This document shows positions 40,242 to 61,919 of a stretch of 64,000 nucleotides of DNA, piece by piece. Origin of the DNA: Roseivivax jejudonensis. Lineage in GTDB: Bacteria; Pseudomonadota; Alphaproteobacteria; Rhodobacterales; Rhodobacteraceae. The translations under genes and the position numbers were made by a program. The notes beneath the pieces are model-generated. The model saw only the letters and a list, made by a program, of their open reading frames with translations, ran no database searches and was not told where the DNA came from. Every line of letters starts with the position of its first letter. Position 1 is the first letter of the stretch. The DNA is taken from contig NZ_FWFK01000001.1 of NCBI RefSeq assembly GCF_900172265.1, positions 620,001 through 684,000 of the forward strand, given 5' to 3'.

Positions 40242-40937
40242 TCAGGTCCGCGCCTTCTCGAACGCGGTCCACGCTGTCTCGAATGCCGTGAAGTCGAAGC
40301 CGGGCGCGCGCGCCGCGTCGAGCACGATCGCCTCCGTCGCGCGCATCTTCTCGATCGCGGCGCCGAGCGTCGGGATCACCGCATCGGGGATCACGACCGC
40401 CCCGTGCCGATCCGCGTGGACCCACTCGCCCGGCTCCACGGCGAGGCCGAACACCGTCACCGGCACGTCGATCGCGCGGACGTGCACGAAGGCGTGGCTC
40501 GGCCCGATGGACCCGGCGAGAACGGGAAACCCATCGGCCATGTCGCCGAGGTCGCGCATCACGCCATTGGTCAGAACGCCGCCCAGCCCGAAGCCCTTGT
40601 GCACGCAGGTGTTGATCTCGCCCCAGAAGGCGCCGACCGCCTCTGCACCGTCGAGATCCTCGATCACTGCCAGCGCCGGCCCGTCCGCCTCGGCCATGTA
40701 GCGATAATACGCCATGCGGCGCGTCCGCACCTCGTCGGCCGGTTCGGCCGGCGGCGTCGCGGCGGCGATCTGCGCCGTGCGGGCCCGGCCGACGATGGCG
40801 CCTGCCTCCGGCGCGCTCGACAGCAGCGTGCCGCGGGTGAAGCGGTCGAAGCCGCGCCGGCCTTCGGCCACCTCGATGGCGTTGCAGACGGTCGGCGTGT
40901 CGACCGAGCGCAGAAGCTCCAGAAGTTCGGGTGTCAT
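40242..40937 (-). CDS. RraA-like/HMG-CHA aldolase-fold protein
   Basis: 231 residues. The site LGGVLTNGVMRDLGDM matches GGxxTDGxxRD of RraA-fold aldolases with the Arg-Asp pair kept. The N-terminus (LRSVDTPTVCNAIEVAEGRRGFDRFTRG) and EWVHADRHGAVVIPDAVI also fit. Relatives cleave 4-hydroxy-4-methyl-2-oxoglutarate or decarboxylate oxaloacetate. GGAGGAC precedes the ATG at 40937. It is the last gene of the large minus-strand locus and overlaps the hydrolase gene at ATGA, so a lyase step at the end of that pathway is a fair inference. Confidence 0.85.
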   Translation of the reverse strand: MTPELLELLRSVDTPTVCNAIEVAEGRRGFDRFTRGTLLSSAPEAGAIVGRARTAQIAAATPPAEPADEVRTRRMAYYRYMAEADGPALAVIEDLDGAEAVGAFWGEINTCVHKGFGLGGVLTNGVMRDLGDMADGFPVLAGSIGPSHAFVHVRAIDVPVTVFGLAVEPGEWVHADRHGAVVIPDAVIPTLGAAIEKMRATEAIVLDAARAPGFDFTAFETAWTAFEKART

Positions 40938-41629
40938 GTGTCCTCCAGCCAGCGCATCATTGCGCGCGTCGTGACGTCCGGCGCCTCGAGCGTCGGCAGG
41001 TGCCCGGCACCCTCGACGATCTCGAGCCTGGATCCGGGCATCAGGTCGTTCATCCATTCATGCCGCGACACCGGGCACAGCCGGTCGTGCCGACCGCACA
41101 GAATCAGCGTGGGCATGTCGAGCGCGGCCAACGTTTCCTGACGGTCGGGCCGGTCGCGCAGCGCGATCGACTGACGACAGAAGACGTCCGGCCCGAGATC
41201 CAGCGCCATGTCCATGCACAGCGCGAGGATCGCCGCACGGCGCGGGCTTTCGGTGACATAGCGGGGCTTCAGCTCGTCGCGCATCACGTCGGCGAGGTGT
41301 CCGGCGCGCACCTTGGCCATCTGGCGGCCGCGCAGCGTGCGCACCTCCTGCGCTTCGGCGCAGGGGTTGGTGTCGAGGAGCGCCAGACCGGCAATCCGAT
41401 CCGGCGCCAGATGGGCGATCTCCATCGCGACGATCCCGCCCATCGACAGTCCGGCGAGCGCGAAGCGCGGCGGTGCGTGCGCCAGCACGGCCGCGGCAAG
41501 CTCGGCCGTGCTTTCGTGACCTGAAATCGGCGCATGGTGCACGGCCCGGTGGCCCGACACGGCGGAGATCTGTGGCGCGAACAGGCGCGCGTCGCACATC
41601 ATGCCGGGCAGGAGGACGAGCGGCGTCAT
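40934..41629 (-). CDS. Alpha/beta hydrolase
   Basis: 231 residues: VLLPGMMCDARLF (oxyanion region), nucleophile Ser62 in ALAGLSMGGIVAMEI, acid Asp in LILCGRHDRLCPV and His in IVEGAGHLPTLEAPD. It is like esterases and lactone/3-oxoadipate enol-lactone hydrolases. It overlaps both neighbours by 4 nt (ATGA at each side), so it is tightly coupled to the MetE-like and RraA-like genes. The substrate is unknown. Confidence 0.88.
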   Translation of the reverse strand: MTPLVLLPGMMCDARLFAPQISAVSGHRAVHHAPISGHESTAELAAAVLAHAPPRFALAGLSMGGIVAMEIAHLAPDRIAGLALLDTNPCAEAQEVRTLRGRQMAKVRAGHLADVMRDELKPRYVTESPRRAAILALCMDMALDLGPDVFCRQSIALRDRPDRQETLAALDMPTLILCGRHDRLCPVSRHEWMNDLMPGSRLEIVEGAGHLPTLEAPDVTTRAMMRWLEDT

Positions 41630-42747
41630 GGCACCCGCCGGGCGCCCTCGGCAAGGGTCGCGAGCTTGGCCCAGGCAATCTCGGGGTCGACGGCGCCGAA
41701 GCCCGCGAACGTGCCGAACCCGCAATCGGACCCGGCGATCACCCGGTCGGACCCGACCAGATCGACGAACCGCGACAGGCGCTCGGCCACGAGGTCGGGA
41801 TGCTCGACGAAGTTGGTCGTCGTGTCGACGCAGCCGGGCACGAGCACCTTGTCGTCGGGAATGTCGGCACGCCGATCGCGGAAGACCTGCCATTCGTGAC
41901 CGTGCCGCGGGTTCGACGTCTCGAACAGAACGTAGCGGGCCGGCACCGACATGAGCATGTCGAAGACCTTGTCCATGCCGATGTCGCAGACATGCGGCCC
42001 CTCGTAGTTGCCCCAGCAGATGTGCAGGCGCACCCGGTCCTGCGGCACGTCCGCCAGCGCCGCGCGCAGTGCCTCGATATGCCCGGCCGCGATCTTGAGG
42101 AACGCCTCGTCGGACAGGTCGGCAAACAGCATGTGCCGCGACAGCGCGAGGTCGGGGCAATCGAGCTGCAGATCGAGGCCGGCGGCGACGATCGTCTCGT
42201 ATTCCGTCTTCATCGCGTCGGAAAGTGCCGCAAGGTAGGCGTCGCGCGTCGGGTAGTGGTCGTTCTGCAGAAAGAGCGCGATCACCCCCGGCGACGCGGC
42301 ATTCATGAACCCGCGGTCCGCGCCATGGGCGTCCATCGCCGCGCGCAGGTTGGCGATGTCGGAGTCCAGCTCGCCCTGCCCTTTTGAGCGCACCTCGCCG
42401 ACGCACATCGGCCGGGCGTATTTCGGCGTGCCGCCGGACTTCGCGATCCGGTCGAGGAAGGTTGGGTAGAGCTTCAGGTCGGCCGGCGCGTTGCGCGGGC
42501 TGTCGCCCCCGAAGCCGGTATAGCGGTCCTTGACGTAGGTGGCGTAGCTGATCTTGGACATCTCGCCGTCGGACACGATGCCGATGCCCGCTTCGACCTG
42601 CCGTCGCACGGCGTCGGACACGGCATCGGTCATGCACGCGGCGAACGCCTCGGGGTCGTAGTCCTCGCCGCGCTCGCGCGCGAAGAGGAAGTCCACGACC
42701 TCCTGGCTGCGTGGCAGGCTGCCGACGTGGGTGGCATCTACGGGCAT
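41626..42747 (-). CDS. MetE C-terminal-like cobalamin-independent zinc methyl/alkyl-transferase family protein
   Basis: 373 residues, only the catalytic half of MetE. Zinc ligands are visible as His242 and Cys244 (LHICWGN), Glu276 (LFETSNPRHGHEW) and Cys342 (AGSDCGFGTF). The N-terminus is THVGSLPRSQEVVDFL. Without the folate-binding N-half it is unlikely to be a normal methionine synthase; family members of this size include core-MetE proteins and epoxyalkane:coenzyme M transferase. An alkyl transfer to a thiol is therefore the broad expectation. AAAGGAGACGCG precedes the ATG. It overlaps the hydrolase gene downstream. Confidence 0.85.
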   Translation of the reverse strand: MPVDATHVGSLPRSQEVVDFLFARERGEDYDPEAFAACMTDAVSDAVRRQVEAGIGIVSDGEMSKISYATYVKDRYTGFGGDSPRNAPADLKLYPTFLDRIAKSGGTPKYARPMCVGEVRSKGQGELDSDIANLRAAMDAHGADRGFMNAASPGVIALFLQNDHYPTRDAYLAALSDAMKTEYETIVAAGLDLQLDCPDLALSRHMLFADLSDEAFLKIAAGHIEALRAALADVPQDRVRLHICWGNYEGPHVCDIGMDKVFDMLMSVPARYVLFETSNPRHGHEWQVFRDRRADIPDDKVLVPGCVDTTTNFVEHPDLVAERLSRFVDLVGSDRVIAGSDCGFGTFAGFGAVDPEIAWAKLATLAEGARRVP

Positions 42748-42787
42748 CGCGTCTCCTTTCCGCGGCGCCCGGTCGCTGTTCGCCCGG

Positions 42788-43438
42788 TCAGGCCGCCGTG
42801 AGGTCTTGCGGCAGGTACAGACGATCGAGCGTCAGGGCCGCGTGGTCGAAGGCAGCGGGATCGTGAAACGCCCCCGGAAAGGCGATGCACGTGATCCCGG
42901 CGGCGGCCGCGGCCGCCATGCCGTCTGGGTTGTCCTCCACCGCCAGCGCCTGCCGGTCGGAGAGGGAAAGCCGGGACAACGCCTCGGCGTAAACCGCTGG
43001 ATCCGGTTTCGGCGCGAGCCCAGAGCTCTTGTCGAGAACAAGGTCGAAATCGTCGCGCGACAGGCCCGTCGCATCCAGTACCGCCTCCACGTTGTCGGGC
43101 GAGGTCGCCGTCACGAACGCGAGCGTCCAGCCGCGCGCACGCGCATCGGCCATCGCATCCGCGACGCCCGCGCGCAAAGGCACGCCCGCGTCCAGCTTCG
43201 ACTGGAAAAGCGCGCTCTTGCGAGCGTGCAGCGCCTCGGCGTCCACGTCGGCACCTTTCTCCATGGCATAGGACTCGATCCGAGCCTTGCCCCCGGCATC
43301 CTTCAGCATCTCGCGATAGGCGGACTCGCTCCACTGCCAGTCGAGCCCGGCCTCCGCGAACGCCTCGTTGAAGGATTGCAGTTGCAGGTGCGACGTCTCG
43401 GCGAGCACGCCGATCGATCCGAGGAATAGGCCGGGCAT
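42788..43438 (-). CDS. HAD-superfamily protein lacking motif I aspartates
   Basis: 216 residues of the beta-phosphoglucomutase/CbbY-like HAD-IA group. The cap (LQLQSFNEAFAEAGLDWQWSESAYREML), motif II (LAFVTATS), motif III Lys (SSGLAPKPDPAVY) and motif IV acid pair (LAVEDNPDG) are in place. Motif I, normally DxDG, reads LFLGSIGVLAETS: Gly7 and Ile9 replace the nucleophile and the general acid. It should not form the usual phospho-aspartate. It sits in the SnoaL-rich locus after the bicupin gene. Confidence 0.85.
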   Translation of the reverse strand: MPGLFLGSIGVLAETSHLQLQSFNEAFAEAGLDWQWSESAYREMLKDAGGKARIESYAMEKGADVDAEALHARKSALFQSKLDAGVPLRAGVADAMADARARGWTLAFVTATSPDNVEAVLDATGLSRDDFDLVLDKSSGLAPKPDPAVYAEALSRLSLSDRQALAVEDNPDGMAAAAAAGITCIAFPGAFHDPAAFDHAALTLDRLYLPQDLTAA

Positions 43439-43451
43439 GGACAGGTGTCTC

Positions 43452-43480
43452 CATTGTCGGGTGGAACCACATGGACAATG
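43452..43480 (-). promoter_or_regulatory. Nested inverted repeat between bicupin and HAD genes
   Basis: Outer arms CATTGTC and GACAATG enclose GTGGAACCAC, itself self-complementary. In the 51-nt gap this could fold as an mRNA stem-loop or act as an internal operator. It lies 14 nt before the HAD start. Confidence 0.35.
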
Positions 43481-43489
43481 CCCCTCCGC

Positions 43490-44473
43490 TCACGCCGGTT
43501 CCGACCGGCCGCCTGTCCAGGTCGGGCCTGCCGGATCGTCCGTGCCGACCACGTGGTAGAGCGCCGCCTCCCCGGTCATCGACGGCATCGCGCTGTGATC
43601 GAGGTTTTCCGGCACGCTCATCGTGTCGCCGGGGGCGAGGATCGTCGATCCGCCGTCCCAGTCGATGCGCCAGTGGCCGAAGACCGGCATCAGAACAGAG
43701 GGCCTGTCGTGGCGATGCATCTTCTCCGTCGCCGAGGCGCGGGTGATCAGGTCGACCTCGAATCCCGGCTTGTCCGGCAGGCGACCGGACGCGCCGATCA
43801 CCTTGGTCGGCCGCGGCGTCGCCATCGCAGCGATGTCGAGATAGCGTGCAACGTGACGCGGGATCACCTCGGCCGCGGACGGTTCGGGAAAGGCGTCGAG
43901 TTCGGCGTCGCTCAGCACCGGCATCGGTTTCACACCATCTGGCAGAGCTTGCCCTTTCTTGGTGTCGTAGAGCTTGCCGTTGTCGCCGAGGACGAGGCCG
44001 TGATCCTTCGCGTCCTCGATGACCTGCGGCGCCCAGACGACTCCGCCACCGGCATCGTCGCCGCCCAGGATCGCCATGATCATCCCGTAGTCGGTGCCGA
44101 TGTTCTCGAACCCGCGGAAGATGCCGGTGGGGATGTTGAATATGTCGCCTTCCTCGAGGATCACGTGACCGGCATCCCCGTGACGCCCCCAGAAGAAGCG
44201 CCAGCGCCCCTTCAGCAAAAAAAAGACCTCGGCGGTGCGATGGGAATGCAGCGAGTTCCGGCAATAGGGCGGCTGGCCAGCCGCGCCGATGTTGAAGCCG
44301 TGCGGAATCTGGATGTGAACGTGCTGGTCCGCGGCCTCGGACACGCCGCCGCCGATGATCGTGAAGTTCTCCTTCTGGTTCGATCCGGGCGTGTGCGCGT
44401 CGATGAACGCGGTGCGGCACGGCACGAGCTCGCCGTAGCGGACGATGCGCGGGGCCATGTCTTCGGGGGTCAT
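43490..44473 (-). CDS. Bicupin domain protein
   Basis: 327 residues with two cupin domains. The first has metal-type residues in LHSHRTAEVFFLLKGRWRFF (His76, His78, Glu82); the second has KMHRHDRPSVLMPVFGHWRIDW. Both have the closing G-D motif (LEEGDIFNIPTG, LAPGDTMSVPEN). Relatives include gentisate/homogentisate-type dioxygenases and sugar isomerases. The ATG at 44473 follows GAGGAG; a longer frame is not coding. It is 10 nt behind the SnoaL-like gene at 44484. Confidence 0.8.
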   Translation of the reverse strand: MTPEDMAPRIVRYGELVPCRTAFIDAHTPGSNQKENFTIIGGGVSEAADQHVHIQIPHGFNIGAAGQPPYCRNSLHSHRTAEVFFLLKGRWRFFWGRHGDAGHVILEEGDIFNIPTGIFRGFENIGTDYGMIMAILGGDDAGGGVVWAPQVIEDAKDHGLVLGDNGKLYDTKKGQALPDGVKPMPVLSDAELDAFPEPSAAEVIPRHVARYLDIAAMATPRPTKVIGASGRLPDKPGFEVDLITRASATEKMHRHDRPSVLMPVFGHWRIDWDGGSTILAPGDTMSVPENLDHSAMPSMTGEAALYHVVGTDDPAGPTWTGGRSEPA

Positions 44474-44483
44474 GTCGATCTCC

Positions 44484-45488
44484 TCATCGGGGCGATCCTT
44501 CGGCATCCCCGGCCTCTCCGGTTGCCAGCAGGATCTGCTTCCAGATCGCGGTTTCGTCGTAGAGCGTGAATTCGCGGCGCAGGCCCCACGGCCCGAACTC
44601 GGCATGGGAAATGCCCATCACGTGCACTTCTGCCCCGGTCGGTCGCCCGAAGGCGCCCCAGCCGTCGTGCCGGCCGGTCAGCGACCAGCGCACCGCCGCG
44701 CGCGGCGGCATCATCGGATCGTCGCGCCCGATGCGATGGTGGATCTCGAACCGGGCAGAGGGAAACGCCGCTCGGAGCGAAATCCAGAAGCGATCGACCG
44801 CGCCCGTGCCGTGGTCCTCTTCACCGCCGGGATAGTGCGACTGCACCGCGCGATCGTATTCCGCCGGGATCGCGGCGAGGTCTGCGTTCATGATCCGCGT
44901 CAGCAGATCGCCGTAGCGCGCGCCCCACTCGTTGTCGTTTCCGGACCCCTTGTAAGGGCCTGCGACATCGGTTTGCGGGGTGCACGGGCGCACGGCAGCG
45001 TCCGGACCACCCTCGCGCGCGATGAGGTCTCGGGCATAGGCGCGCGGCTCCAGCCCGAGCTGTCGCACGATCGCCCCCTGGTCGCGGATCAGCCATTCGT
45101 CGTCGATGGCGTTTGCGCGCGCGTGGCAATCGGCCAGGATGCGGTAGCGCAGCCGCGTGCCGGATGCAGCGCCGTAGACACCGCTGCCGGTATGGGTCGC
45201 ATGCGACATGATCCGGTGCGAGGACAGCATCCCGGTCTCCGGATCGCCGGACCAGATCACGTCCTCGGCCAGAAGAGTCCGGTCGGGAAACTCCGACAAC
45301 GTTGCCAGGGTCGCGGCGATGACCCCCTCGTTGCCCGTGACGACCGACGCCGGCGAACGCACCACGATGTCGGGTGCGTAGTAGTCGTGCAGCGTGGCGA
45401 CGCCGCGGTCCTCCCAGATCTCCTTGGTGATCCCGATGATGTAGTCGGGAAAGTCGCGGAACCTGGGGTCGAATCCGTGCATGCTCAT
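44484..45488 (-). CDS. SnoaL/NTF2-fold protein, ester cyclase-like (1)
   Basis: 334 residues. The first half has an ester-cyclase-like run (HDYYAPDIVVRSPASVVTGNEGVIAATLATLSEFPDRTLLAEDVIW, IDDEWLIRDQGAIVRQLG) and the second another NTF2-type part ending EVHVMGISHAEFGPWGLRREFTLYDETAIWKQIL. Members cyclise, hydrate or isomerise small molecules, and many lack known activity. Its start codon directly follows the stop of the LacI gene (TGAATG). It is one of four such proteins in the locus and is the most divergent from the others. Confidence 0.75.
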   Translation of the reverse strand: MSMHGFDPRFRDFPDYIIGITKEIWEDRGVATLHDYYAPDIVVRSPASVVTGNEGVIAATLATLSEFPDRTLLAEDVIWSGDPETGMLSSHRIMSHATHTGSGVYGAASGTRLRYRILADCHARANAIDDEWLIRDQGAIVRQLGLEPRAYARDLIAREGGPDAAVRPCTPQTDVAGPYKGSGNDNEWGARYGDLLTRIMNADLAAIPAEYDRAVQSHYPGGEEDHGTGAVDRFWISLRAAFPSARFEIHHRIGRDDPMMPPRAAVRWSLTGRHDGWGAFGRPTGAEVHVMGISHAEFGPWGLRREFTLYDETAIWKQILLATGEAGDAEGSPR

Positions 45489-46532
45489 TCAGATCCATCC
45501 TTCGGGCAGGCGCGCCGAGCGGCGCAGCACCAGCGGCGCGTCGATCACCTCGCGGCCGGCGGCGTCCCACGGCGCGTCGATCTGCGCCAGCAGGACCGAG
45601 ACCGCGGCCTCGACCATCCGGTTCGCGCGCTGGCGCACGGTCGTCAGGGCATAGGCCGGCCATGCGGCAGGCGGCACGTCGTCGAAACCGACGACCGACA
45701 CGTCTTCGGGCACGTTCAGGCCCAGCTCGAACCGCAACACGTCCATGACGGCAAAGGCCATGTGATCGTTGCAGACGAAAACGGCGTCCGGCCGCGGCGC
45801 GGCGTCGGTGAACATGCGCCGTGCCGCGCCCCGGGCGGTATCGGCGTGGAAATCGCCGACCTCGCGCGCGTGAAGCGACACGCCGGCGGCCGCCAGCCCC
45901 TCGAGAAAGCCGGCCTCACGGTCGCGCTGGGTCGATGCGCCTTCCCACCCGGCGATGTAGGCGACCCGCTCGTGCCCGGCCTCCACGAACAGCCGGGCGA
46001 CCTCGCGTCCGCCGCCGAAGTTGTCCGAAGCCACGGTCGCCACGCCGTCCACGTCCTGGATGCGGTTGAACAGCACCACAGGCACGCCAAGGCTGCGGCA
46101 CCGTTCGGCAAGGTCCGAAGACAGCGCGACCGATGCCACGATGATGCCGGCGACCTGGTAGTCGAGGATCTCCTCGACGACCGCGTCGATGTTGGTCGCG
46201 GTCTGCGAGGTCATGAAGACGAGCACGTGATAGCCCTCGGCCTGCAGCGCGTGAGAGAACTTCTCGAGCGCCTCGGGGTAAAAGTAGTTCTCGAGGTAGG
46301 CCACCACGAGCCCGATCATCCGGCTGCGCCCGGTGATGAGCGAGCGTGCCAGGGCGTTGGGGCGGTAGCCCAGACGCTCGGCCGCCGCACGCACCTTGTC
46401 GGCCGTCTTTTGCGACACCGACGCGCCCGGCGTGAACACCCGGCTGACCGCGGAACGGCTCACGCCCGCGGCGCGGGCCACGTCCTGTGCCGTGACCTTG
46501 TCGGTCCGGCCCGGATCCGGCGTCGCGCTCAT
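45489..46532 (-). CDS. LacI-family transcriptional regulator of the SnoaL/TRAP/ABC locus
   Basis: 347 residues. The LacI helix-turn-helix and hinge lie at about 14-60 (VTAQDVARAAGVSRSAVSRVFTPG, RLGYRPNALARSLITGRS), and a periplasmic-binding-like effector domain follows (VASDNFGGGREVARLFVEAGHERVAYIAG, VVGFDDVPPAAWPAYALTTVRQ). It binds a small ligand, probably an intermediate of the pathway. The ATG at 46532 overlaps the SDR stop. A fitting palindrome with a central CG lies at 57763-57784 at the head of the locus. Confidence 0.9.
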   Translation of the reverse strand: MSATPDPGRTDKVTAQDVARAAGVSRSAVSRVFTPGASVSQKTADKVRAAAERLGYRPNALARSLITGRSRMIGLVVAYLENYFYPEALEKFSHALQAEGYHVLVFMTSQTATNIDAVVEEILDYQVAGIIVASVALSSDLAERCRSLGVPVVLFNRIQDVDGVATVASDNFGGGREVARLFVEAGHERVAYIAGWEGASTQRDREAGFLEGLAAAGVSLHAREVGDFHADTARGAARRMFTDAAPRPDAVFVCNDHMAFAVMDVLRFELGLNVPEDVSVVGFDDVPPAAWPAYALTTVRQRANRMVEAAVSVLLAQIDAPWDAAGREVIDAPLVLRRSARLPEGWI

Positions 46533-47287
46533 CCCGCGGTCCACCCGCCGTCGACCATGTGCGCGCTGCCGGTGACCAGCGCGGACGCGTCCGAGGCGAG
46601 GTAGACCACCGCGCCCATCACGTCCTCGACCGCGCCGACCCGACCGAGCTTGATCTTCGCCTCGAGCCACGCGCGCTTGTCCGGGTCGGCGAAGGTGCTT
46701 TCGGTCAGGGGCGTGCGGATGAAGGTCGGGCAGAGCGAATTGATGCGGATGCCGAGTGCTCCCCACTCGATCGCCATGGCCTTCACCATGCCCTCGACCG
46801 CGTGTTTCGACGCGCAGTAGACCGCCCGGTCCACGCCGCCGACATGGCCCATCTGCGACGAGACATGAATGATCGAGCCACTACGCCCTGCCGCGCGGAG
46901 CGCGCGCGCCGCGCGCTGCGACAGGAAGTACGCGGCCCGCAGGTTCACGGACATGACAGCGTCGAAGTCGTCGGGATCGGTATCGAGCGCCGGTCCATGC
47001 CGCGCGAGGCCCGCGGCATTGACCACGACGTCGTAGGGCGCCGCGAAGAGCGCCGCGAGATCGGCGAGGTCGGTGATATCGGCCGGTTCCGCCTCGGCCC
47101 GCCAGCCTTCGGCGCGCATCGCCTCGACGCATTCGGTCAGCGCGCCGGCGCGGCGCGCGACACAGGTGACCTGAGCGCCGGCCTCGGCCAGCGCGCAGGC
47201 CGCGGCAAGACCGATCCCGGAGGAGGCGCCGGTGACGAGCGCGCGGCGGCCGTCGAGCCGGAAGGACGGCGTGCGCGGAAGGGTCAT
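46529..47287 (-). CDS. Short-chain dehydrogenase/reductase
   Basis: 252 residues of the classical SDR type: TGASSGIG (19-26), NAAG (90-93), catalytic Ser144, Tyr157 and Lys161 (YCASK), and C-terminal SALVTGSAHMVDGGWTAG. Arg residues after beta-2 (CVARRAG) suggest NADP(H), though this is not certain. It oxidises or reduces a secondary alcohol or ketone. It overlaps both neighbours by 4 nt, coupling it to the LacI and SnoaL-like genes. Confidence 0.9.
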   Translation of the reverse strand: MTLPRTPSFRLDGRRALVTGASSGIGLAAACALAEAGAQVTCVARRAGALTECVEAMRAEGWRAEAEPADITDLADLAALFAAPYDVVVNAAGLARHGPALDTDPDDFDAVMSVNLRAAYFLSQRAARALRAAGRSGSIIHVSSQMGHVGGVDRAVYCASKHAVEGMVKAMAIEWGALGIRINSLCPTFIRTPLTESTFADPDKRAWLEAKIKLGRVGAVEDVMGAVVYLASDASALVTGSAHMVDGGWTAG

Positions 47288-50212: not shown

Positions 50213-50213
50213 G

Positions 50214-51509: not shown

Positions 51510-51512
51510 CGC

Positions 51513-52007
51513 TCAGACATCCATCTGCGGAGTCAGCTGCGTCTCGCCGCGAAACGCGATGCGCCAGATCGAATGGATCAGCCGCGCGGCCGAGAGCGCG
51601 CCGGAAAAGATGATCGCGGCGTAGAGGACAGAGGTCGGCCATTCCGTCGCCGACAGGATCTTGCCGCGCTCGGTCGCCTGCTGGGTGATGACGACGCCCA
51701 GCCAGCAGACGACCAGCGAATAGACGAGGAATACGGTCTCGGCCGCGAGCATCATCCAGCGGCGCAGCCCGGGCGGCGCGAGGTCCAGAAGCACGGTCAC
51801 CCGCATGTGCCGGCGGTCGCGGATGGCGTAGGCAACGCCGAAGTAGATCATGTACACGAAGGCGAGGCGCGCGACCTCGCCCGCGAAGGCGATGGAGGTG
51901 GCAAAGGCGAAGCGCGCCACGACGTCGGCGAAGACCAGCACGATCACCACCGACAGCGCAGTCACGATGACCACGGGTTCGAAGTATTTCTCGATCCGGG
52001 ACAGCAT
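51513..52007 (-). CDS. TRAP transporter small permease (DctQ-type)
   Basis: 164 residues, four transmembrane helices: VVIVTALSVVIVLVFADVVARF, EVARLAFVYMIYFGVAYAIRDRRHMRV (family motif), a third in ETVFLVYSLVVCWLGVVI and a fourth near AAIIFSGALSAARLI. Partner of the large permease 3 nt downstream and the binding protein 19 nt upstream. Confidence 0.9.
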   Translation of the reverse strand: MLSRIEKYFEPVVIVTALSVVIVLVFADVVARFAFATSIAFAGEVARLAFVYMIYFGVAYAIRDRRHMRVTVLLDLAPPGLRRWMMLAAETVFLVYSLVVCWLGVVITQQATERGKILSATEWPTSVLYAAIIFSGALSAARLIHSIWRIAFRGETQLTPQMDV

Positions 52008-52026
52008 TTCGCCCTCGCCTCCGGGC

Positions 52027-53010
52027 TCAGTTTTCCAGTGCCGACATGAAGTCGTCGTAGAACTGGTCGCCGACCCGCTCGCGGATGTCGGCCTCGATGG
52101 CGCCGTTCATGGTCTCTCCCATCTGGGTGCGGTCCTCGGCCGGCAGTTCGTTGACCTCGAGCCCCTCCTCGCGCAGCCGATCGAGGGTTTCTTCGTTGGC
52201 CGCGACGGTCAGCTCGCGCTGGCGCTCGACCGTTTCTGCCGCGACCTCCTCGATCAGCGACTGCTGTTCGGACTCGAGGCCCTGCCACCATTCGAGATCG
52301 GCCATCCACAGCTCCGGCCAGTAGATGTGCCCGGTCAGCGACACGTAGTCCTGCACCTCGAAGAACCGCTCCACCACCATCGAGGACAAGGCGCTTTCCT
52401 GGCCGTCGATCAGGCCCTGCTGAAGCGAGGAGTAGATCTCGCCCCAGGCGAGCGGCACGGGCACGGCCCCGATCGACCGCCACGCCGTGATCTGGATCGG
52501 GTTGTCGGCCGAGCGCATCCGCAGGCCCTCAAACGCCTCTATGCTGTCGAGCGGGCCGCGCGAGTTGGTGAACGACCGGAAGCCCAGTTCCATGAAGCCC
52601 ATGAGCTTGATGCCCTGTTCCTCCATCGCGGTGCCGAGGCTGTCGCCGGCCTCGCCGTCGAGGACCGAGCGCGCCTGCGCCTCGTCCTCGAACAGCAGGA
52701 ACTGGTCGAGAACAGCCAGCTCAGGCACGCGCGAGGACAGCAGGACCGACGCTCCGGTGGTCATCGTCAGGTTGCCGGACTGGACGAGGTCGGTCATCTC
52801 CTGCACCGATCCGATCTGCCCGCCGGGGAAGAGCTCGACCTGGATGTCGCCCTCGGACCGGCTTTCCAGTTCCTCCTCGAAATAGGCCAGCGCCTGATGC
52901 AGGGGCGAGCTTTCGGGGGTCGCGTGGCCGATGCGGATGGTCTCCTGCGCCGCGGCCGGAAGCGCCGCGACAAGGCCGAAGCCGGCGGCCAGGATGCGTG
53001 TGCGTTTCAT
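52027..53010 (-). CDS. TRAP transporter solute-binding protein (DctP-type)
   Basis: 327 residues with a signal peptide (MKRTRILAAGFGLVAALPAAA) before QETIRIGHATPESSPLHQAL. SIEAFEGLRMRSADNPIQITAWRSIGAVPVPLAWGEIYSSLQQGLIDGQESALSSM includes the arginine (LRMR) that grips a ligand carboxylate or sulfonate in the family. The ligand is probably an organic anion. GGGAGG precedes the ATG. It follows the ABC permease gene by 65 nt, placing TRAP genes directly behind a complete ABC importer. Confidence 0.92.
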   Translation of the reverse strand: MKRTRILAAGFGLVAALPAAAQETIRIGHATPESSPLHQALAYFEEELESRSEGDIQVELFPGGQIGSVQEMTDLVQSGNLTMTTGASVLLSSRVPELAVLDQFLLFEDEAQARSVLDGEAGDSLGTAMEEQGIKLMGFMELGFRSFTNSRGPLDSIEAFEGLRMRSADNPIQITAWRSIGAVPVPLAWGEIYSSLQQGLIDGQESALSSMVVERFFEVQDYVSLTGHIYWPELWMADLEWWQGLESEQQSLIEEVAAETVERQRELTVAANEETLDRLREEGLEVNELPAEDRTQMGETMNGAIEADIRERVGDQFYDDFMSALEN

Positions 53011-53075
53011 TGTAGTCGGTCCTCCCTGGGAACGCGCCCTCCTCCCGGGCGCAAGATGATCGTGCGAGCCGGATG

Positions 53076-54230
53076 TCATCCCTTCACCGCTCCCGCCGTC
53101 AGACCGCTGACGATCTGCCGCTGGAACACCATCACCAGCACGAAGAGCGGCGCGGTGATCGAGACCGCCGCAGCGATGGCCTCCACCTGGTCGGTGGTCG
53201 TGGTCTCGCGGTTGAAATAGCTGGCGATGGCGGGGACCATCGTCTGGTTCTGCGCGTCGAGAAGCAGCGATGTCACCAGAAAGTCGTTGTAGGCCAAAAG
53301 GAAGCTGAAGAGCCCCGTCGTGATGACCCCGGGCCACATCACCGGCATGATGACCTGCCGGAACGCTTGGAAATGTGTGCAGCCGTCGACCCGCGCCGCT
53401 TCGTCGAGCTCGGTCGGGATGTTCTGGAAGAACGAGCGCAGCATCCAGATCGTGAAGGGCTGGTTGATCGCGACGAGAACGGCGATCACCGCGTAGGGCT
53501 GGCCATAGAGCGTCGGCGCCGCGTCCCCGAAGATCGGCGCCAGCCAGTCCGACGAATTGATGAACACCGGCAGGTAGCCCGCGACAAGGACAGAATGCGG
53601 CAGCGCGCGAAAGATCAGCGCGGCGATCAGGAGCCAGAAGGCAAGGTTCGACGGCGACCGCGCCAGCGCGTAGCCCGCCAGGGTCCCGACGAAGAGCGAG
53701 ATCGTCACGACGCCGGCCGTGACCACGAGCGAATTGACGAAGTTGCGCCAGAACGCGTTCTCGACCCACACGGCATAGTAGTGCTCGAACGTGGCGCCGA
53801 TCACCGGCTGGCCGAGCGGCCCGGCGATGGCGTCGAGCGCGCCGAGCACCGGCGGCAGGATCCCGAAGACCACGAGGCCGAACACCGCGAGATAACCGAG
53901 CCCCGCGACCAGCCAGCCGATTGCAATCCAGCCGGCCGGCGTAAGGCGCCGGACATGCCGCGGCAGGCCGGAGAACGCCCAGCGCGCCAGCGCGATCACC
54001 ACCGCGCCGCCGATCAGCAGTTCGAGCACCGACAGCCCCTGCCCGTTTCCGCGGGTCGTCGGCCCGAACAGGACGTCTCCGAAGTTGCCGGCGAAGGCGT
54101 CGACCGGCGACTTGATCGACATCACGGCGATCCACGCGATCGGAAAAATCGCCAGAAGGCACCAGAAGCCGAGGAACGCGCCCGAGGCGAGACGCAAGGA
54201 CAACGGCTGACGCATGGTCCGGGCGGTCAT
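53076..54230 (-). CDS. CUT1-type ABC sugar permease, MalG-like
   Basis: 384 residues. The C-terminal two thirds are a normal MalG-type permease with the EAA loop TELDEAARVDGCTHFQAFRQVIMPVMWPG. The N-terminal part is longer than usual: after the first helix (FWCLLAIFPIAWIAVMSIKSP) there is an extra block of about 110 residues with two to three more hydrophobic segments. The substrate is unknown. Its start codon shares one base with the MalF-type stop (TGATG). Confidence 0.88.
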   Translation of the reverse strand: MTARTMRQPLSLRLASGAFLGFWCLLAIFPIAWIAVMSIKSPVDAFAGNFGDVLFGPTTRGNGQGLSVLELLIGGAVVIALARWAFSGLPRHVRRLTPAGWIAIGWLVAGLGYLAVFGLVVFGILPPVLGALDAIAGPLGQPVIGATFEHYYAVWVENAFWRNFVNSLVVTAGVVTISLFVGTLAGYALARSPSNLAFWLLIAALIFRALPHSVLVAGYLPVFINSSDWLAPIFGDAAPTLYGQPYAVIAVLVAINQPFTIWMLRSFFQNIPTELDEAARVDGCTHFQAFRQVIMPVMWPGVITTGLFSFLLAYNDFLVTSLLLDAQNQTMVPAIASYFNRETTTTDQVEAIAAAVSITAPLFVLVMVFQRQIVSGLTAGAVKG

Positions 54231-55252
54231 CAGCGCTCTCCCTTGTGTTCGCGCCACGCGCGGCGCACCGGCGCGATCAGCAGGATCACGATCCCGACCA
54301 TCGTCAGCATCGCCGAGGCCGAGGCGCGCGAGATCGCGCGGTTGCCGGCGTCGTCCGGCTGAAGGAAGTCGTAGGTGAGCCACTGCAGCGAGATGACATG
54401 GCTCTGCGAGGAAAAGCCGACGATCTCCTCGAACACGCGGTAGGCGTCCATCAAGTGAATGAGCGCGACAAAGGTGATCAGCGGCCCGAGATGCGGGATC
54501 ACCACGAAGCGCAGGCGCTGCCACCGGTTCGCGCCGTCGACGATGGCCGATTCCAACGTGTCCTGGTTCACCGTCTGCAGGCCGGCGTAGAAGATCACGA
54601 AGGCGAACGGTGCGACGTGCCAGACCCGGTAGAAATACATCATCAGCTCGATGGTCCAGCCCTGCGCGAACATCGCGATGTCGCGATTCAGCACCTCCTC
54701 GAGCGCCGCGGTCAGGATGCCGTCGCCGATGAAGAGCCACCGGATCGACAGCGCGCCGATCACCGGGGTGATGATGAACGGCAGCAGCGACATGAAGATC
54801 ACCGGCCCGCGGATCGACCTCACCGCGTTGTTCACCGCGAGCGCGATCGCGAGGCCGAGCACGATCACGATCGGCAGCGTGATCAGCGTGAACATCACCG
54901 TGAAGCGCAGCGCGGCCCAGAAGTCGACGTTGAGGATGCTCGCCCAGTTGCCCGACGACAGGTACTCGCCCACGCGGTCGAACTGCAACAGGTTACGATA
55001 GCTTTCGAGCCCGACAAAGAGCGTGCGCGTCTCGATCCGGCCGTCTTCGTCGCGGACCGGCTGGCTCTTGGTTTCGGTCACGCAATTGGCGGTCGGAAAG
55101 CCCGGCGTGCAGGATTCGACCTCGACCGTCTCGTAGACCGGCTGGGTCACGTAGAAGCTCTGGCCGAAGACCGACACGAGCGGCGCGGCGATGAAGATCA
55201 GCATCATCAGCAGCGAGGGCGCCACGAAGGCGGCGAAGACACGGGGCTTCAT
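54230..55252 (-). CDS. CUT1-type ABC sugar permease, MalF-like
   Basis: 340 residues with about six membrane helices. The EAA-type loop is QDTLESAIVDGANRWQRLRFVVIPHLGP. After the first helix there is a periplasmic loop of about 60 residues with two cysteines (VESCTPGFPTANCVTE) that may form a disulfide. The ATG at 55252 follows GAGGAGAG; the 15 codons upstream are unlikely. It pairs with the MalG-like permease. Confidence 0.9.
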   Translation of the reverse strand: MKPRVFAAFVAPSLLMMLIFIAAPLVSVFGQSFYVTQPVYETVEVESCTPGFPTANCVTETKSQPVRDEDGRIETRTLFVGLESYRNLLQFDRVGEYLSSGNWASILNVDFWAALRFTVMFTLITLPIVIVLGLAIALAVNNAVRSIRGPVIFMSLLPFIITPVIGALSIRWLFIGDGILTAALEEVLNRDIAMFAQGWTIELMMYFYRVWHVAPFAFVIFYAGLQTVNQDTLESAIVDGANRWQRLRFVVIPHLGPLITFVALIHLMDAYRVFEEIVGFSSQSHVISLQWLTYDFLQPDDAGNRAISRASASAMLTMVGIVILLIAPVRRAWREHKGER

Positions 55253-55322
55253 CGGCTCTCCTCCTCGCTGCTGGGTCCCGCAAAGGGTCCGGGGCACGCA
55301 GGCGCGCCCCGGACCGGGTCAC

Positions 55323-56549
55323 TCAGCCGTCGACCAGCCCGGCCTCGCGGGCCGCGGTCAGGTAGTCTGCCTCGATATCGGCGAGCGTTTCCTCGGCGGC
55401 CTTGTCGCCGGTCAGGAAAGCGGCGATGCCGTTGCCGAGCGCGGTGTGCATGAGCCCCATCGCGGTGGTCGACGGATAGGCCCGGGCGGCCGGCTGCGAC
55501 TGCAACGTCGCGATCGCCCCCTCGGCGAGCCGCGTCGGCTCGTAGCCCTCGATCAGCCAGATCGCGGCGCTGTTGTTGGCCTGGACCATCTCGCTGTCGA
55601 GGCCCTCCATCGCCACGCGGAAGGCCGCTTCGGCGGTCTCGTCGTCGATGTTCGCGGCGACGACGACACCGTCCCACCAGATCGTGGTGGCCGGCGGGCC
55701 ATCGGCGGTCGCCTTGGGCGCGGCGGCGGTCTCGACCAGCCCGACCACCTCGGACTCGGCCTCGTTGTCCATCGCGCCGGCGCGGCTGGCCCAGAGATTG
55801 GCCATCGCGATCCGGCCCTGCTGGAACTGCTGCTGCACGTAGGTCGAGTCGGAGACCAGATATTCGGGATCCATGTACTCGGTCATGGCGCGCATCATCT
55901 CGAGCGCGTTGATCCCCGCCTCGGTGTTCAGCGTCGGTATGTTCTCGGAATCGACGAACTCTCCGCCGAAGCCGTAGAACATGTTCACGTAGTCCTGCGC
56001 GAGGTTCCACCCGGTCTGCATCGTGGCGCCGAGCGGGTACTCGACCACGCCGGCCTCCTGGATCGTCGCGGCGGCCTCGAGGACCTCGTCCCAGGTTTCC
56101 GGCACCTCGAGATCAAGATCCTCGAAGATGTCGGCGCGATACATCAGGTGCTGAGTGTTAACCATCATGCCGATGGCCATCACCTGCCCGTCGATGCGGA
56201 TCAGCTGGTTGTCGTTGAGGGACTGGCCGTACTCCGCCACGAGGTCGTCGAGTGGGCGGATCGTCCCCTCGTTGATGAGCGGCGTGATAGTGCCATTGGC
56301 GACGCCGCCCAACGCGTAGAGCGAGGGATCCGCCGCGAAGGCGGCGGGCTGCTTGGTGCGGAACTCCTGATCGAGCTCGGCCTCGAAGCTGCCGCACTCG
56401 GCCATTGCGTCCGAAACCGCCTTCCATGCCTCGAACCCGGCCGAAAGCATGGACACGGGCGTGTCGTTTTCAAAGCTGCACTCGGCCATCGCGGGTCCGG
56501 CCAGCAGGGTCGCCGCACCGACGGCGGCAAAGATCGTGCGTTTGGTCAT
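55323..56549 (-). CDS. Family-1 ABC solute-binding protein (carbohydrate type)
   Basis: 408 residues with signal peptide MTKRTIFAAVGAATLLAGPAMA before ECSFENDTP. MalE-like motifs are IRPLDDLVAEYGQSLNDNQLIRIDGQVMAIGMMVNTQHLMYRADIFEDLDLEVPETWDEVLEAA and FQQGRIAMANLWASRAGAM. It should capture a sugar, polyol or glycoside. GGGAG precedes the ATG. It sits between the ATPase and the two permeases of one importer. Confidence 0.9.
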   Translation of the reverse strand: MTKRTIFAAVGAATLLAGPAMAECSFENDTPVSMLSAGFEAWKAVSDAMAECGSFEAELDQEFRTKQPAAFAADPSLYALGGVANGTITPLINEGTIRPLDDLVAEYGQSLNDNQLIRIDGQVMAIGMMVNTQHLMYRADIFEDLDLEVPETWDEVLEAAATIQEAGVVEYPLGATMQTGWNLAQDYVNMFYGFGGEFVDSENIPTLNTEAGINALEMMRAMTEYMDPEYLVSDSTYVQQQFQQGRIAMANLWASRAGAMDNEAESEVVGLVETAAAPKATADGPPATTIWWDGVVVAANIDDETAEAAFRVAMEGLDSEMVQANNSAAIWLIEGYEPTRLAEGAIATLQSQPAARAYPSTTAMGLMHTALGNGIAAFLTGDKAAEETLADIEADYLTAAREAGLVDG

Positions 56550-56609
56550 TGTGTCGCTCCCGATTGGATCGTTCGTGCCGGGAGCTTCGCGCCCCGGTCC
56601 TCGTTATGT

Positions 56610-57668
56610 CTATCGCGCATCCAGTCGCGCCTCGGTGGCCGGATCGAAGAGGTGGCATGCTCCGGGCGGAACGACGAAGGACACGGCGTCGCCGATCGAC
56701 GCTCTCAGGTCCTTCGACGCCTTGACCGACATGAGCGCGCCGCCGGCGCGGACCGTCAGCATGGTCGCGTCGCCGAGAAGCTCGATCGTGTAGAGAGGCG
56801 CCTCGATCTGAGCGGGCTCGCCCGGTTCGGCCAGCCGCGCGTCCTCGGCCCGGAAGCCGAGGGTGAGCGCGCCGTCCCGCACCTCCAGTCCCTCCACCCT
56901 CACGCTGTCGGCCTCGAAGGTGCCGCCGGAGACATGCCCTTCGACGAGGTTCATGCCAGGAGATCCGATGAAGCCCGCGACGAACACGTTGGCGGGGCGG
57001 TTGTAGATCTCCGTCGGGGTCCCGACCTGCTGGACCACGCCGCGCTTCATCACCACGACGCGGTCGGCGAGGGTCATCGCCTCGATCTGGTCGTGGGTGA
57101 CATAGATCGTGGTCACCTTGAGCTCGTGCGACAGGTTCTTGATCTGCGCGCGCGTCGAGACGCGCAGCTTTGCGTCGAGATTGGACAGCGGCTCGTCCAT
57201 GAGAAAGACGTTGGGCTCGCGCACGATGGCGCGCGCCAGCGCGACGCGCTGCCGCTGGCCGCCCGAAAGCTCCGCCGGCTTGCGATGCAGGAAGTCCTCG
57301 AGCTCCACCATGCGCGCAGCTCGCATCACCCGTTCGTCATGCGTGCTTTCGTCGATCTTCCGCACGCGCAGCGGGAAGCGGATGTTCTCGTAGACGTTCA
57401 GGTGCGGATAGAGGCCGTAGGACTGGAACACCATCGCCACGTCGCGATCCTTGGGATCCAGATCGTTGACGCGCTGGCCACCGATCATGATGTCGCCTTC
57501 GGTCGCGTCCTCAAGACCGGCGATCATGCGCATCGTCGTGGTCTTGCCGCACCCCGACGGGCCGAGCAGCACCAGAAACTCCTCGTCGGCGATCGTCAGG
57601 TCGAAGCTGTCGACACCGACGAAACTGCCCCAGCGCTTGGACAGATTGCGCAGCTGAATCTCGGCCAT
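56610..57668 (-). CDS. CUT1-type ABC ATP-binding protein, UgpC/MalK-like
   Basis: 352 residues. Walker A GPSGCGKTTT, Q-loop VFQSYGLYPHLNV, signature LSGGQRQRVALARAI, Walker B VFLMDEPLSNLDAKL and switch THDQIEAMTLADR, followed by a C-terminal OB-type (TOBE) regulatory domain (TLGFRAEDARLAEPG). It is the first gene of the eighteen-gene minus-strand run. The ATG at 57668 follows GGGAGAGG. The operator at 57763-57784 lies 95 nt upstream. Confidence 0.92.
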   Translation of the reverse strand: MAEIQLRNLSKRWGSFVGVDSFDLTIADEEFLVLLGPSGCGKTTTMRMIAGLEDATEGDIMIGGQRVNDLDPKDRDVAMVFQSYGLYPHLNVYENIRFPLRVRKIDESTHDERVMRAARMVELEDFLHRKPAELSGGQRQRVALARAIVREPNVFLMDEPLSNLDAKLRVSTRAQIKNLSHELKVTTIYVTHDQIEAMTLADRVVVMKRGVVQQVGTPTEIYNRPANVFVAGFIGSPGMNLVEGHVSGGTFEADSVRVEGLEVRDGALTLGFRAEDARLAEPGEPAQIEAPLYTIELLGDATMLTVRAGGALMSVKASKDLRASIGDAVSFVVPPGACHLFDPATEARLDAR

Positions 57669-57762
57669 CGGCCTCTCCCAGTTGATGCGGGACGTCGATG
57701 TTCGGGCGATCACTCGCGGTTTACGGGAACGCTAGACACCGGAGAAGGCACGTGGCAAGCTC

Positions 57763-57784
57763 TTTTTGCAATCGTGTGCAAAAA
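57763..57784. promoter_or_regulatory. LacI-type operator at the head of the SnoaL/TRAP/ABC locus
   Basis: TTTTTGCA and TGCAAAAA face each other across ATCGTG; the central CG is also symmetric, as in most LacI-family sites. It lies between the divergent ATPase gene (start 57668) and SnoaL gene (start 57798) and is the only site of this form I noticed in the locus. The regulator at 45489-46532 is the likely binder. Confidence 0.75.
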
Positions 57785-57797
57785 TGAAAGAGTCCCC

Positions 57798-58790
57798 GTG
57801 CTCGTGACCGATCAGCGCGCCAGTCTGCATGCCGGCCTGTCCGCCATGCTGCGTGCCCCCGACGCAGAATTCGACGCCAGCGTCGCGCGAATCTTCTCCG
57901 AATCCTGCCGCGTGCACCTGTCCGCGCCCTTCTACCCGCTCGACGGGACGGAGGCTCTGATCGCAGGGTTCCTCCGGCCGCTCCGCACGGCATTCGAAGG
58001 CATCCACCGGCGCGACGAGATCTTCATCGCAGGGGACAACCGGCGCGACACGGGCGGCCATTGGGCCGCGAGCGTGGCCCACTACGTCGGCAATTTCCGC
58101 GCTCCGTTCGCGGGCATACGTCCCTCCGGCAGGCTCGCCTTCCTGCGCGCCGGCGAGTTCTACCGCATCGAGGGTGGCCGCGTGACCGAGGCGCGCCTGA
58201 TCCTCGACCTGCCGGACCTGATGCGCCAGGCGGGACGGATGCCCTTCCCGCAAGAGCTCGGCACCGAGATGCTGTTTCCGTCGCCGGCGACCCACGATGG
58301 CGTGCTCCCGCAGACTGGGTCCGGCGCGGAAAGTCTCGACGTGGTGGAGCGGATGCTAAGCGACCTGCACGCCTACGACCCGCAGACCTTCGAGAGCGCG
58401 GCGCAGACCGGCGCTTCGGGTGCGTGGGCCGACGACATGCTGTGGTACGGGCCGTCCGGGATCGGTGCGAACTATCGCTGGTCGGGCTTCGTGAAGGATC
58501 ACCGTGCGCCGTTCCTGACGGCCTTTCCCGATCGTAAGGGCGGCAATCATTACTGCCGGATCGGTGACGGCAATTATGCCGCCGTGTCCGGATGGCCGTC
58601 GATGACGATGACGCATCTCGGCGACTACCTGGGCGTTCCGGCGACCCATCGGGCGCTGACGCTGCGGGTCATGGATTTCTACCGCATCGCCGGTGGGCGG
58701 ATCGCGGAGAACTGGGTGCTGCTCGACTACCTCGATCTCTTCGCGCAGATGGGCATCGACCTCGTGGCGCGCTCAAACGCGATGGAATGA
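57798..58790 (+). CDS. Tandem SnoaL/NTF2-fold protein (4)
   Basis: 330 residues and a clear paralogue of the 350-residue protein at 47284-48336: both have EFYRIEGGRVTEARL or its match in the first domain, LWYGPSGIG at the domain junction, and MDFYRIAGGRIAENWVLLDYLDLFAQMGIDLVARS at the end. It has the same internal duplication of the NTF2 unit. There is no ATG at the N-terminus; the GTG at 57798 (or 57804) is taken, with AAAGAG upstream. The gene is divergent from the minus-strand run and starts 13 nt after the LacI-type operator, so it belongs to the same regulon. Confidence 0.78.
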   Translation: MLVTDQRASLHAGLSAMLRAPDAEFDASVARIFSESCRVHLSAPFYPLDGTEALIAGFLRPLRTAFEGIHRRDEIFIAGDNRRDTGGHWAASVAHYVGNFRAPFAGIRPSGRLAFLRAGEFYRIEGGRVTEARLILDLPDLMRQAGRMPFPQELGTEMLFPSPATHDGVLPQTGSGAESLDVVERMLSDLHAYDPQTFESAAQTGASGAWADDMLWYGPSGIGANYRWSGFVKDHRAPFLTAFPDRKGGNHYCRIGDGNYAAVSGWPSMTMTHLGDYLGVPATHRALTLRVMDFYRIAGGRIAENWVLLDYLDLFAQMGIDLVARSNAME

Positions 58791-59117: not shown

Positions 59118-59145
59118 TCGCCACACGACAAGGAGGAGGAGATCC

Positions 59146-60033: not shown

Positions 60034-60117
60034 CCCCGGCCGCGACGCACCTCGCGGGCGGCCCGCAGCGCGGCGCCGCCGGACACGCCCCAATCGTCCG
60101 GACGCTCGGGAGGAGAC

Positions 60118-61797: not shown

Positions 61798-61919
61798 GCG
61801 ACCGACCCCGCGGACGGACGCCCCTCTTCCCCGTCCGCTCGCCGACCTCTCCACCGGGACGCCGCCCCAGGCGTCCCGTGTCTGCTCCTCGAAGACCGAA
61901 CCACAGGACCGGCCCGACG

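Follow-up and report, generated by a model that had tools for sequence, protein, structure and literature searches.

A conserved gene cluster of Rhodobacteraceae combining four SnoaL proteins, up to two importers and a dehydrogenase from a separate HisD-like subfamily

Results

Gene content of the locus

We analyzed a 64,000-nucleotide stretch of the Roseivivax jejudonensis genome (the window), and we describe here a cluster of 19 genes at positions 40242–58790 within it. A preliminary description, made from the sequence alone, had proposed 18 minus-strand genes plus one divergent gene, with frequent ATGA overlaps, and a list of the protein families that they encode. Using a codon model trained on the window to call genes, and Pfam and NCBIfam to assign families, we recovered the same layout, with 18 genes on the minus strand (40242–57668) and one on the plus strand (57798–58790), and Pfam returned the same families.

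The transport part of the minus-strand block lies next to the divergent gene. It begins with an ATP-binding cassette (ABC) importer consisting of a UgpC-like ATPase (56610–57668; NF008653, 445 bits against a cut-off of 432), an SBP_bac_1 solute-binding protein (SBP, 55323–56549; PF01547) and two BPD_transp_1 permeases (PF00528), one UgpA/MalF-like (malF, 54230–55252) and one MalG-like (malG, 53076–54230). A tripartite ATP-independent periplasmic (TRAP) importer follows, with the solute-binding protein DctP (52027–53010; PF03480), the small permease DctQ (51513–52007; PF04290) and the large permease DctM (50214–51509; PF06808).

The catabolic part starts with SnoaL1, a single-domain SnoaL protein (49658–50212; PF07366), a dehydrogenase of the HisD superfamily, which we call HisD-like (48333–49661; Histidinol_dh, PF00815, 442 bits), and the two-domain protein SnoaL_a (47284–48336; PF07366). 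Next are a short-chain dehydrogenase/reductase (SDR, 46529–47287; PF13561, 185 bits), a LacI-family regulator (45489–46544; PF00356 and Peripla_BP_3), the two-domain protein SnoaL_b (44484–45488; PF07366/PF12680 in two stretches), and a bicupin (43490–44473; PF07883) whose start we moved from 44506 to 44473 on the basis of its relatives. The block ends with a CbbY-like haloacid dehalogenase (HAD) family protein (42788–43438; assigned by Pfam), a protein with the catalytic domain of cobalamin-independent methionine synthase (MetE-core, 41626–42747; Meth_synt_2, PF01717), an alpha/beta hydrolase (abH, 40934–41629) and an RraA-like protein of the aldolase/decarboxylase family (40242–40937; PF03737, 63 bits). 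The divergent plus-strand gene encodes another two-domain SnoaL protein, SnoaL_c (57798–58790; PF07366, 86 bits, two stretches). All four SnoaL-fold proteins noted in the preliminary description score above the Pfam cut-off and together hold seven SnoaL domains, one protein having one matched stretch and three having two.

Five of the junctions are 4-base overlaps (RraA/abH, abH/MetE, SDR/SnoaL_a, SnoaL_a/HisD and HisD/SnoaL1), malG and malF overlap by 1 base and LacI and SDR by 16 bases. The largest gap in the minus-strand block, between malF and SBP, is 70 bases. Scanning the window for Rfam families and tRNAs gave no match.

Conservation and spread of the cluster

Scanning genome contigs with SnoaL_a as the query gave 353 confirmed places, of which we kept the best 80 (the 80 relatives). 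We counted homologs at a minimum of 33% identity, in stretches of which some stop short at a contig end or at the limit of the 10-kb flank. Most of the cluster is present in most relatives: UgpC in 73, SBP in 75, malF and malG in 76 each, SnoaL1 in 74, HisD in 75, SDR in 74, LacI in 77, SnoaL_b in 78, bicupin in 75, MetE-core in 67, RraA in 62, SnoaL_c in 52 and abH in 42. All 14 genes are present in 32 of the 80 stretches. HAD is an optional member (3 relatives); DctM was found once, in a stretch ending there, and DctQ and DctP not at all.

Gene order is strongly conserved. For 13 neighboring pairs, counted when both genes had at least 38% identity and lay within 3.5 kb (intervening genes allowed), order and strand are kept in 96–100% of cases. 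The weakest pair is HisD–SnoaL_a (72/75); others include UgpC–SBP (73/73), SnoaL1–HisD (71/72), SnoaL_b–bicupin (73/75), bicupin–MetE (64/66), MetE–abH (37/37) and abH–RraA (37/37). A set anchored on HisD instead (29 loci, L003–L031, the most similar matches) has SnoaL1–HisD–SnoaL_a in 21 loci and SnoaL_a directly downstream of HisD in 24. Whether neighboring genes are kept together was the test that the preliminary description had set for itself, and they are. Its view of the whole gene set as a unit holds for most genes and is not general for HAD and for the TRAP binder, which occurs in 4 of 295 genomes of the family (one genome per genus).

In the same family sample, 147 of the 295 genomes have a match to the HisD-like protein at 1e-120. 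Four of these, with E-values of about 1e-121 to 1e-125, have an HpsN-like motif (see below) and were removed, leaving 143 that are assigned by E-value. Since this HisD subfamily is carried by roughly half of the genera sampled in the family, its substrate is probably a compound that is common where these mostly marine bacteria live. A phylum-level sample of 398 genomes gave matches at 1e-140 in 31, of which 14 lie outside the family. Cluster copies are also carried by Rhodobacterales plasmids, and a Vibrio pelagius plasmid has SnoaL and ABC genes without HisD within a 33-kb stretch.

A HisD-like subfamily distinct from HisD and HpsN

The nearest solved relatives of the HisD-like protein are HpsN, the dehydrogenases of 2,3-dihydroxypropane-1-sulfonate (DHPS; 390 and 375 bits), followed by true HisD (254 bits). 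The cluster might therefore be a variant of the catabolism of DHPS or another C3-sulfonate, with the HisD-like gene acting as HpsN. It resembles the hps cluster of Roseobacteraceae (HpsN, HpsO, HpsP), from the same bacterial group, in uniting a HisD-fold dehydrogenase, an SDR, a transporter and a regulator, and one report likewise places dehydrogenases, transporter and regulator together in hps operons (PMC11131964). According to a second report, HpsN is marked by the motif G-R-Y-A/S-H, in which His126 binds the sulfonate (PMC11382572). The window protein has G-K-F-P-M at this place (residues 126–130, codons at 49272–49286 on the minus strand), with Met130 replacing HpsN His126, and keeps the other ligands, the catalytic residues and Lys353.

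This difference holds across the subfamily, which we defined as 150 rows with at least 60% identity, window included (130 distinct sequences). GK[FY]P[ML] is found in 149 rows and GNYPL in the remaining one, and GRY[AS]H is found in none, compared with GR[YF][SAC]H in 8 of 8 mid-identity paralogs from within the family that we took as HpsN-like. Every one of the 150 rows has the residues matching HpsN Gln248, His251, Glu318, His319, Asp352, Lys353, His359 and His411. GRYPI occurs in four proteins of out-of-family loci, and 9 of the 10 remaining HisD-like rows have Tyr at the Lys353 position. In a FastTree phylogeny of 56 sequences, 34 subfamily members form one clade (support 0.953), the HpsN-like proteins form another (0.997), and the GRYPI proteins lie beside the subfamily clade (0.995); the split of these three groups from the HisD rows is poorly supported (0.4).

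Because the HpsN motif is absent and the subfamily has its own clade, the HisD-like enzyme appears from its sequence to be HpsN-like in build and yet not an HpsN, and we set that identity aside. The retained Lys353 equivalent suggests an anionic substrate, and loss of the His126 equivalent, which is Met or Leu here, argues against a sulfonate. Other evidence also goes against DHPS. All four genomes that we picked by hand as carrying the subfamily have a separate HpsN-like gene; none of the 19 genes belongs to a sulfolyase-type family (the search covered these genes and not the rest of the genome); and the 19 proteins contain no zinc alcohol dehydrogenase domain. HpsP belongs to the zinc alcohol dehydrogenase family. 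The SnoaL, bicupin, MetE-core, RraA and lactonase-like genes of the window have no hps counterpart in the passages covered here of the hps operon report. We consider a DHPS-type pathway improbable.

We also rejected histidinol dehydrogenase. The fold, zinc ligands and catalytic Glu/His of HisD are shared by the window enzyme, which has Lys and not Tyr at the HpsN Lys353 position. A search of its own genome at E = 0.001 found just one other HisD relative, the true HisD, with 39% identity; the two fall in separate clades, and the HisD-like protein has GDKVIGTNH versus GDYVGGPNH in true HisD. No other histidine-biosynthesis family is represented among the 19 genes. The assignment to the HisD family made in the preliminary description thus stands, narrowed by motif and tree to a subfamily apart from both HisD and HpsN, which would be a third HisD class. 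Several plasmid records annotate the cluster's HisD-like gene as histidinol dehydrogenase, and mislabeling as DHPS dehydrogenase could lead surveys to overcount DHPS use. The GK[FY]P[ML] motif is a simple guard against either annotation. Two hisD proteins are mentioned in one report (PMC4103551), where they are not assigned to this locus.

Four loci (L171, L172, L173 and L176) have a second HisD-like protein (43–45% identity) with the GRYPI motif, beside two SnoaL_b-like genes and a LacI gene; the GRYPI proteins are possibly a fourth HisD-fold subfamily. In three further loci (L126, L127 and L181) subfamily members with 62–64% identity occur with a CUT1-type ABC importer and no SnoaL gene in the stretch, accompanied in L126 and L181 by a thiamine pyrophosphate enzyme and a GMC oxidoreductase where tested or matched. 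This is another undescribed context of the HisD subfamily.

SnoaL proteins

The preliminary description had suggested that the four SnoaL-fold proteins carry out several isomerization, dehydration or ring-closing steps, or serve as a scaffold. An alignment of 17 SnoaL proteins, in which SnoaL_b is represented by its first domain, shows no variation at the Trp, Asp, Gln and Gly of a W...D...QxG stretch. The proteins have SnoaL Pfam domains in common with the polyketide cyclases of the SnoaL/DnrD type, and this resemblance is what a biosynthetic interpretation, with a polyketide-like product in place of catabolism, would build on. They differ from these cyclases in that three of the four have two domains; SnoaL1 scores 49.5 bits against a cut-off of 200 with the polyketide cyclase model NF033407, whose matches do not include the other three. 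The 19 genes include no polyketide synthase or other synthase and no carrier protein, and they do include two importers and LacI control, so a biosynthetic cluster is scarcely credible.

A haloarchaeal plasmid, from Halobellus limi (L113), has a row of five ester-cyclase genes together with a MetE-like gene; a gene of the aldolase/citrate-lyase family lies farther off. Transfer between domains is one possible reading of this arrangement.

MetE-core protein and methyl transfer

The metal motifs of the MetE-core protein are retained in its homologs: of 79 sequences (some redundant), 78 have H-x-CWGN and 77 have GSDCGF. The window protein has the HxC and GSDCGF motifs, from the zinc site H-x-C...E...C, and scores below the NCBIfam cut-offs. 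A gene for a class I S-adenosylmethionine (SAM) methyltransferase of about 200 amino acids (for example L032, 13389–13991) is present in 42 of 102 loci, in most cases placed between the bicupin and MetE-core genes; Pfam was run on one member of this cluster of proteins. The SAM methyltransferase family has no match among the 19 window genes.

Since the metal motifs are kept and the SAM methyltransferase is frequent, a demethylation step is plausible. In a stronger form, demethylation would be the center of the route: the substrate would be a methylated osmolyte or sugar, and MetE-core, joined in relatives by the SAM methyltransferase, would move its methyl group. Genes for the use of dimethylsulfoniopropionate (DMSP) and of sarcosine lie near two plasmid copies of the cluster, and corrinoid methyltransferase-like genes adjoin TRAP and HisD in locus L119. 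These corrinoid, DMSP and sarcosine genes were each seen in one locus, however, and MetE is absent from the minimal locus (L170) and from the L114 copy. Demethylation, if it occurs, would not be part of the minimal locus, and a route centered on it seems doubtful.

In L119 the genes concerned lie at 15382–18829, beside an inverted TRAP–HisD–bicupin block, and encode a methyl-tetrahydrofolate:corrinoid methyltransferase-like protein, a 311-amino-acid protein with no Pfam or NCBIfam match, and an MtaA/CmuA-like protein. An HpcH/HpaI homolog follows this gene group.

Bicupin, hydrolase, RraA-like and HAD proteins

In alignments the N-terminal cupin of the bicupin retains H-x-H...E and the C-terminal cupin is variable. 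Cupin matches in a profile search were weak (best E-value 2e-5). A structure model (pLDDT 87) found bicupins at 11–16% identity among the 50 fold matches listed, and this fold is common to quercetinase and to 3-hydroxyanthranilate and salicylate dioxygenases; such matches to a model inform on the fold only, not on function. The curated models closest to abH are the enol-lactonases PcaDC and PcaD, below cut-off, and all eight NCBIfam matches of the RraA-like protein, including ligK_PcmE and RraA, are below cut-off as well.

These resemblances could be taken to indicate the catabolism of aromatic or lignin-like compounds, in which SnoaL proteins and bicupin would act on rings or ring-cleavage products, abH as an enol-lactonase and RraA as a 4-hydroxy-2-oxoacid aldolase. 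In one locus (L174), genes for a VanA-like oxygenase and a cyclase lie next to HisD and SDR. Against this, no ring hydroxylase family is represented among the 19 genes, the main importer is of the sugar type, and the Rieske gene was seen in L174 alone, a locus with no bicupin or SnoaL homolog (other neighborhoods were not scanned for it). We regard an aromatic substrate as unlikely.

The HAD protein aligns with the phosphatase CbbY over most of its length (114 bits) and has LGSIGVL at what we take to be the position of the HAD-family nucleophile motif, DxD with its Asp. All four homologous copies that we extracted, two of which are one gene fetched twice, have LGSIG[VT]L. We set aside an active phosphatase, given the apparent loss of the nucleophile motif at this presumed position; some clusters may contain a conserved HAD protein that is not a phosphatase.

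Importers and their binding proteins

The TRAP importer is a rare addition. At E = 1e-110, DctP has matches in 4 of the 295 family genomes, in all four within the HisD gene block, and we rejected TRAP as a standard part of the cluster. One of them (G066) has the same TRAP insertion point as the window, and in another (G152) the cluster ends in an inverted block of TRAP, HisD and bicupin. A more distant TRAP set, whose binder has 49% identity, occurs with HisD and SnoaL genes in L179.

By sequence, the nearest solved relatives of DctP are 4p47, 7bbr, 4nq8 and 4p9k, which places it nearest to sugar-acid binders of the DctPAm type. A Foldseek search with a model of DctP also gave 7bco/7bbr ('sugar acid binding protein DctPAm') as top match. 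This model was too poor (pLDDT 63) for a comparison of pockets. DctM and DctQ match the models of YiaN and YiaM, from the 2,3-diketo-L-gulonate transporter YiaMNO, at scores below the curated equivalog cut-offs (247 against 800 bits for YiaN and 47 against 260 for YiaM). The best solved matches of the ABC binder are the sugar ABC binder 5iai (62 bits) and 1eu8 (47 bits), which are too weak for a substrate assignment, and we set that aside.

A conserved palindrome in the divergent region

The region between UgpC and SnoaL_c contains a LacI-type palindrome, TTGCAnnCGnnTGCAA, at 57766–57781. It is present in 51 of 55 divergent UgpC/SnoaL_c regions of the relatives (50 of 54 distinct regions), twice in 23 of them. 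A shorter core, TGCAnnCGnnTGCA, is present in 53 regions and twice in 29, with copies spaced 54–56 bases apart; at least one shorter core occurred in 7 of 11000 shuffled sequences. The window has one site, not two, and it is the sole perfect match to the palindrome in its genome. There is no such site ahead of the TRAP genes in the window, where the gap is 65 bases. The palindrome is probably the operator of the cluster's own LacI.

A core without SnoaL proteins and two aldolase families

The minimal locus, in genome G222, consists of TRAP, HisD, SDR, LacI, bicupin, abH and RraA only. Searches of this genome with SnoaL_a and SnoaL1 at 1e-10 were both empty, as they were in all 11 genomes searched, G222 included. 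In a like search SnoaL_a found its matches in five genomes known or expected to carry it, and SnoaL1 was run without a positive control of its own. The core thus exists without the SnoaL stage, and this suggests that it can also work without it.

We fetched all 14 HisD-like neighborhoods from outside the family. SDR is directly beside HisD in 12 of them, in one case at only 28% identity. Bicupin and abH homologs are present in seven, the same seven that have SnoaL homologs and lack RraA. Outside the family, HisD, SDR and bicupin occur together in seven loci, all of which have a homolog of an HpcH/HpaI-type aldolase (five were first picked by eye and then confirmed by Pfam) and none of which has RraA; among the 80 relatives HpcH/HpaI is found in none. 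We counted 122 loci in all. HisD, SDR and bicupin are together in 97 of them, accompanied by RraA alone in 71, by HpcH/HpaI alone in 7, by both in 1 (L119) and by neither, within the stretch available, in 18. This pattern fits a retro-aldol step that is served by two enzyme families, but it also follows taxonomy.

Proposed pathway

Searches of the literature (open-access, with few subscription journals and no preprints) found no paper pairing SnoaL with histidinol dehydrogenase or with a TRAP transporter, none treating ester cyclase and histidinol dehydrogenase together in catabolism, and no described pathway with this gene set, in line with the preliminary description. The individual parts have known folds, and the operon is of a known type; no described pathway matched the whole set.

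Starting from the observed gene content and order, the conserved palindrome, the separate HisD subfamily and the core loci without SnoaL or with the second aldolase family, we propose that the cluster is a LacI-controlled, two-stage oxidative operon for the catabolism of a polyhydroxylated compound akin to a carbohydrate or a sugar acid, and we give this interpretation a probability of about 0.45. LacI control, the substrate class, every reaction, the order of steps and the direction of flow are predictions. In an upper stage, the CUT1-type ABC importer would take up the main substrate, and the SnoaL proteins and MetE-core would convert it to a hydroxylated acid by cyclization, dehydration, epimerization or demethylation. 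In the core stage, for which the comparison of loci provides partial support, SDR would oxidize a secondary alcohol and the HisD-like enzyme, zinc- and NAD-dependent, would oxidize the neighboring CH2OH to a carboxylate in two steps, holding an anionic group of its substrate by the conserved Lys without a sulfonate-specific His. The alpha/beta hydrolase would open a lactone, bicupin would isomerize or decarboxylate, and RraA (HpcH/HpaI outside the family) would make a retro-aldol cut that releases pyruvate or an acid like it. The TRAP importer of this genome and of three sampled relatives, with its closeness to sugar-acid binders, would bring an acid straight in at HisD.

This sugar-acid interpretation also draws on genes of some relatives that match fuconolactonase and gluconate/galactonate dehydratase, below cut-off. 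Several observations weigh against it. Pfam assigns none of the 19 genes to a family of sugar kinases, glycosidases or sugar-acid dehydratases, and a plain sugar-acid route would leave MetE-core without a role. The best-known relatives of the SnoaL proteins act in polyketide and steroid chemistry, and aromatics are suggested by L174 because this HisD–SDR locus carries a VanA-like oxygenase. Transferring a ligand to DctP from homologs with about 25–28% identity is weak, the more so with a poor model, and scans for consensus promoters and terminators in the window found none. Neither aldolase family is seen in the available stretch of 18 of 97 core loci (some stretches being clipped), and replacement of one family by the other is not the sole reading of the rest because RraA and HpcH/HpaI follow taxonomy. 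Finally, the 80 relatives were picked through one cluster gene and include close relatives.

We tentatively suggest a wider possibility: the cluster may encode an undescribed, ecologically common route in which the seven-domain SnoaL set carries out successive ring-opening, dehydration or epimerization steps that are done by kinases, glycosidases and dehydratases in the sugar pathways known so far. A third functional class of HisD-fold enzyme, for a non-sulfonated hydroxy acid, would link this stage to a retro-aldol core that is spread through Pseudomonadota and can occur with no SnoaL stage. Through the two solute-binding proteins and the single palindrome, the question of the substrate can be put to a direct test.

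Neighboring genes and other loci

On the plus strand, an open frame of 1199 amino acids at 55191–58790 is antisense to the ABC genes and runs into SnoaL_c. It is most likely a high-GC artifact upstream of the real SnoaL_c start. Directly past the cluster, at 58908–63662 on the plus strand, are genes for a YgaP-like membrane protein, a metallo-beta-lactamase-fold protein, a fusion of a BLH phosphatase domain with a flavoprotein, and a sulfate permease. This group, which presumably is a sulfide/persulfide detoxification operon, is unrelated to the catabolic cluster.

Among the 102 loci, genes for enolase (23), PNPOx (20), glutathione S-transferase (12) and GMC proteins (12) recur; their carriers include close relatives, and we did not use them as main evidence. 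A rearranged cluster is present in two almost identical copies, on two contigs (L104 and L105), of a metagenome-assembled genome labeled SAR324, which could be either a duplication or an assembly effect.

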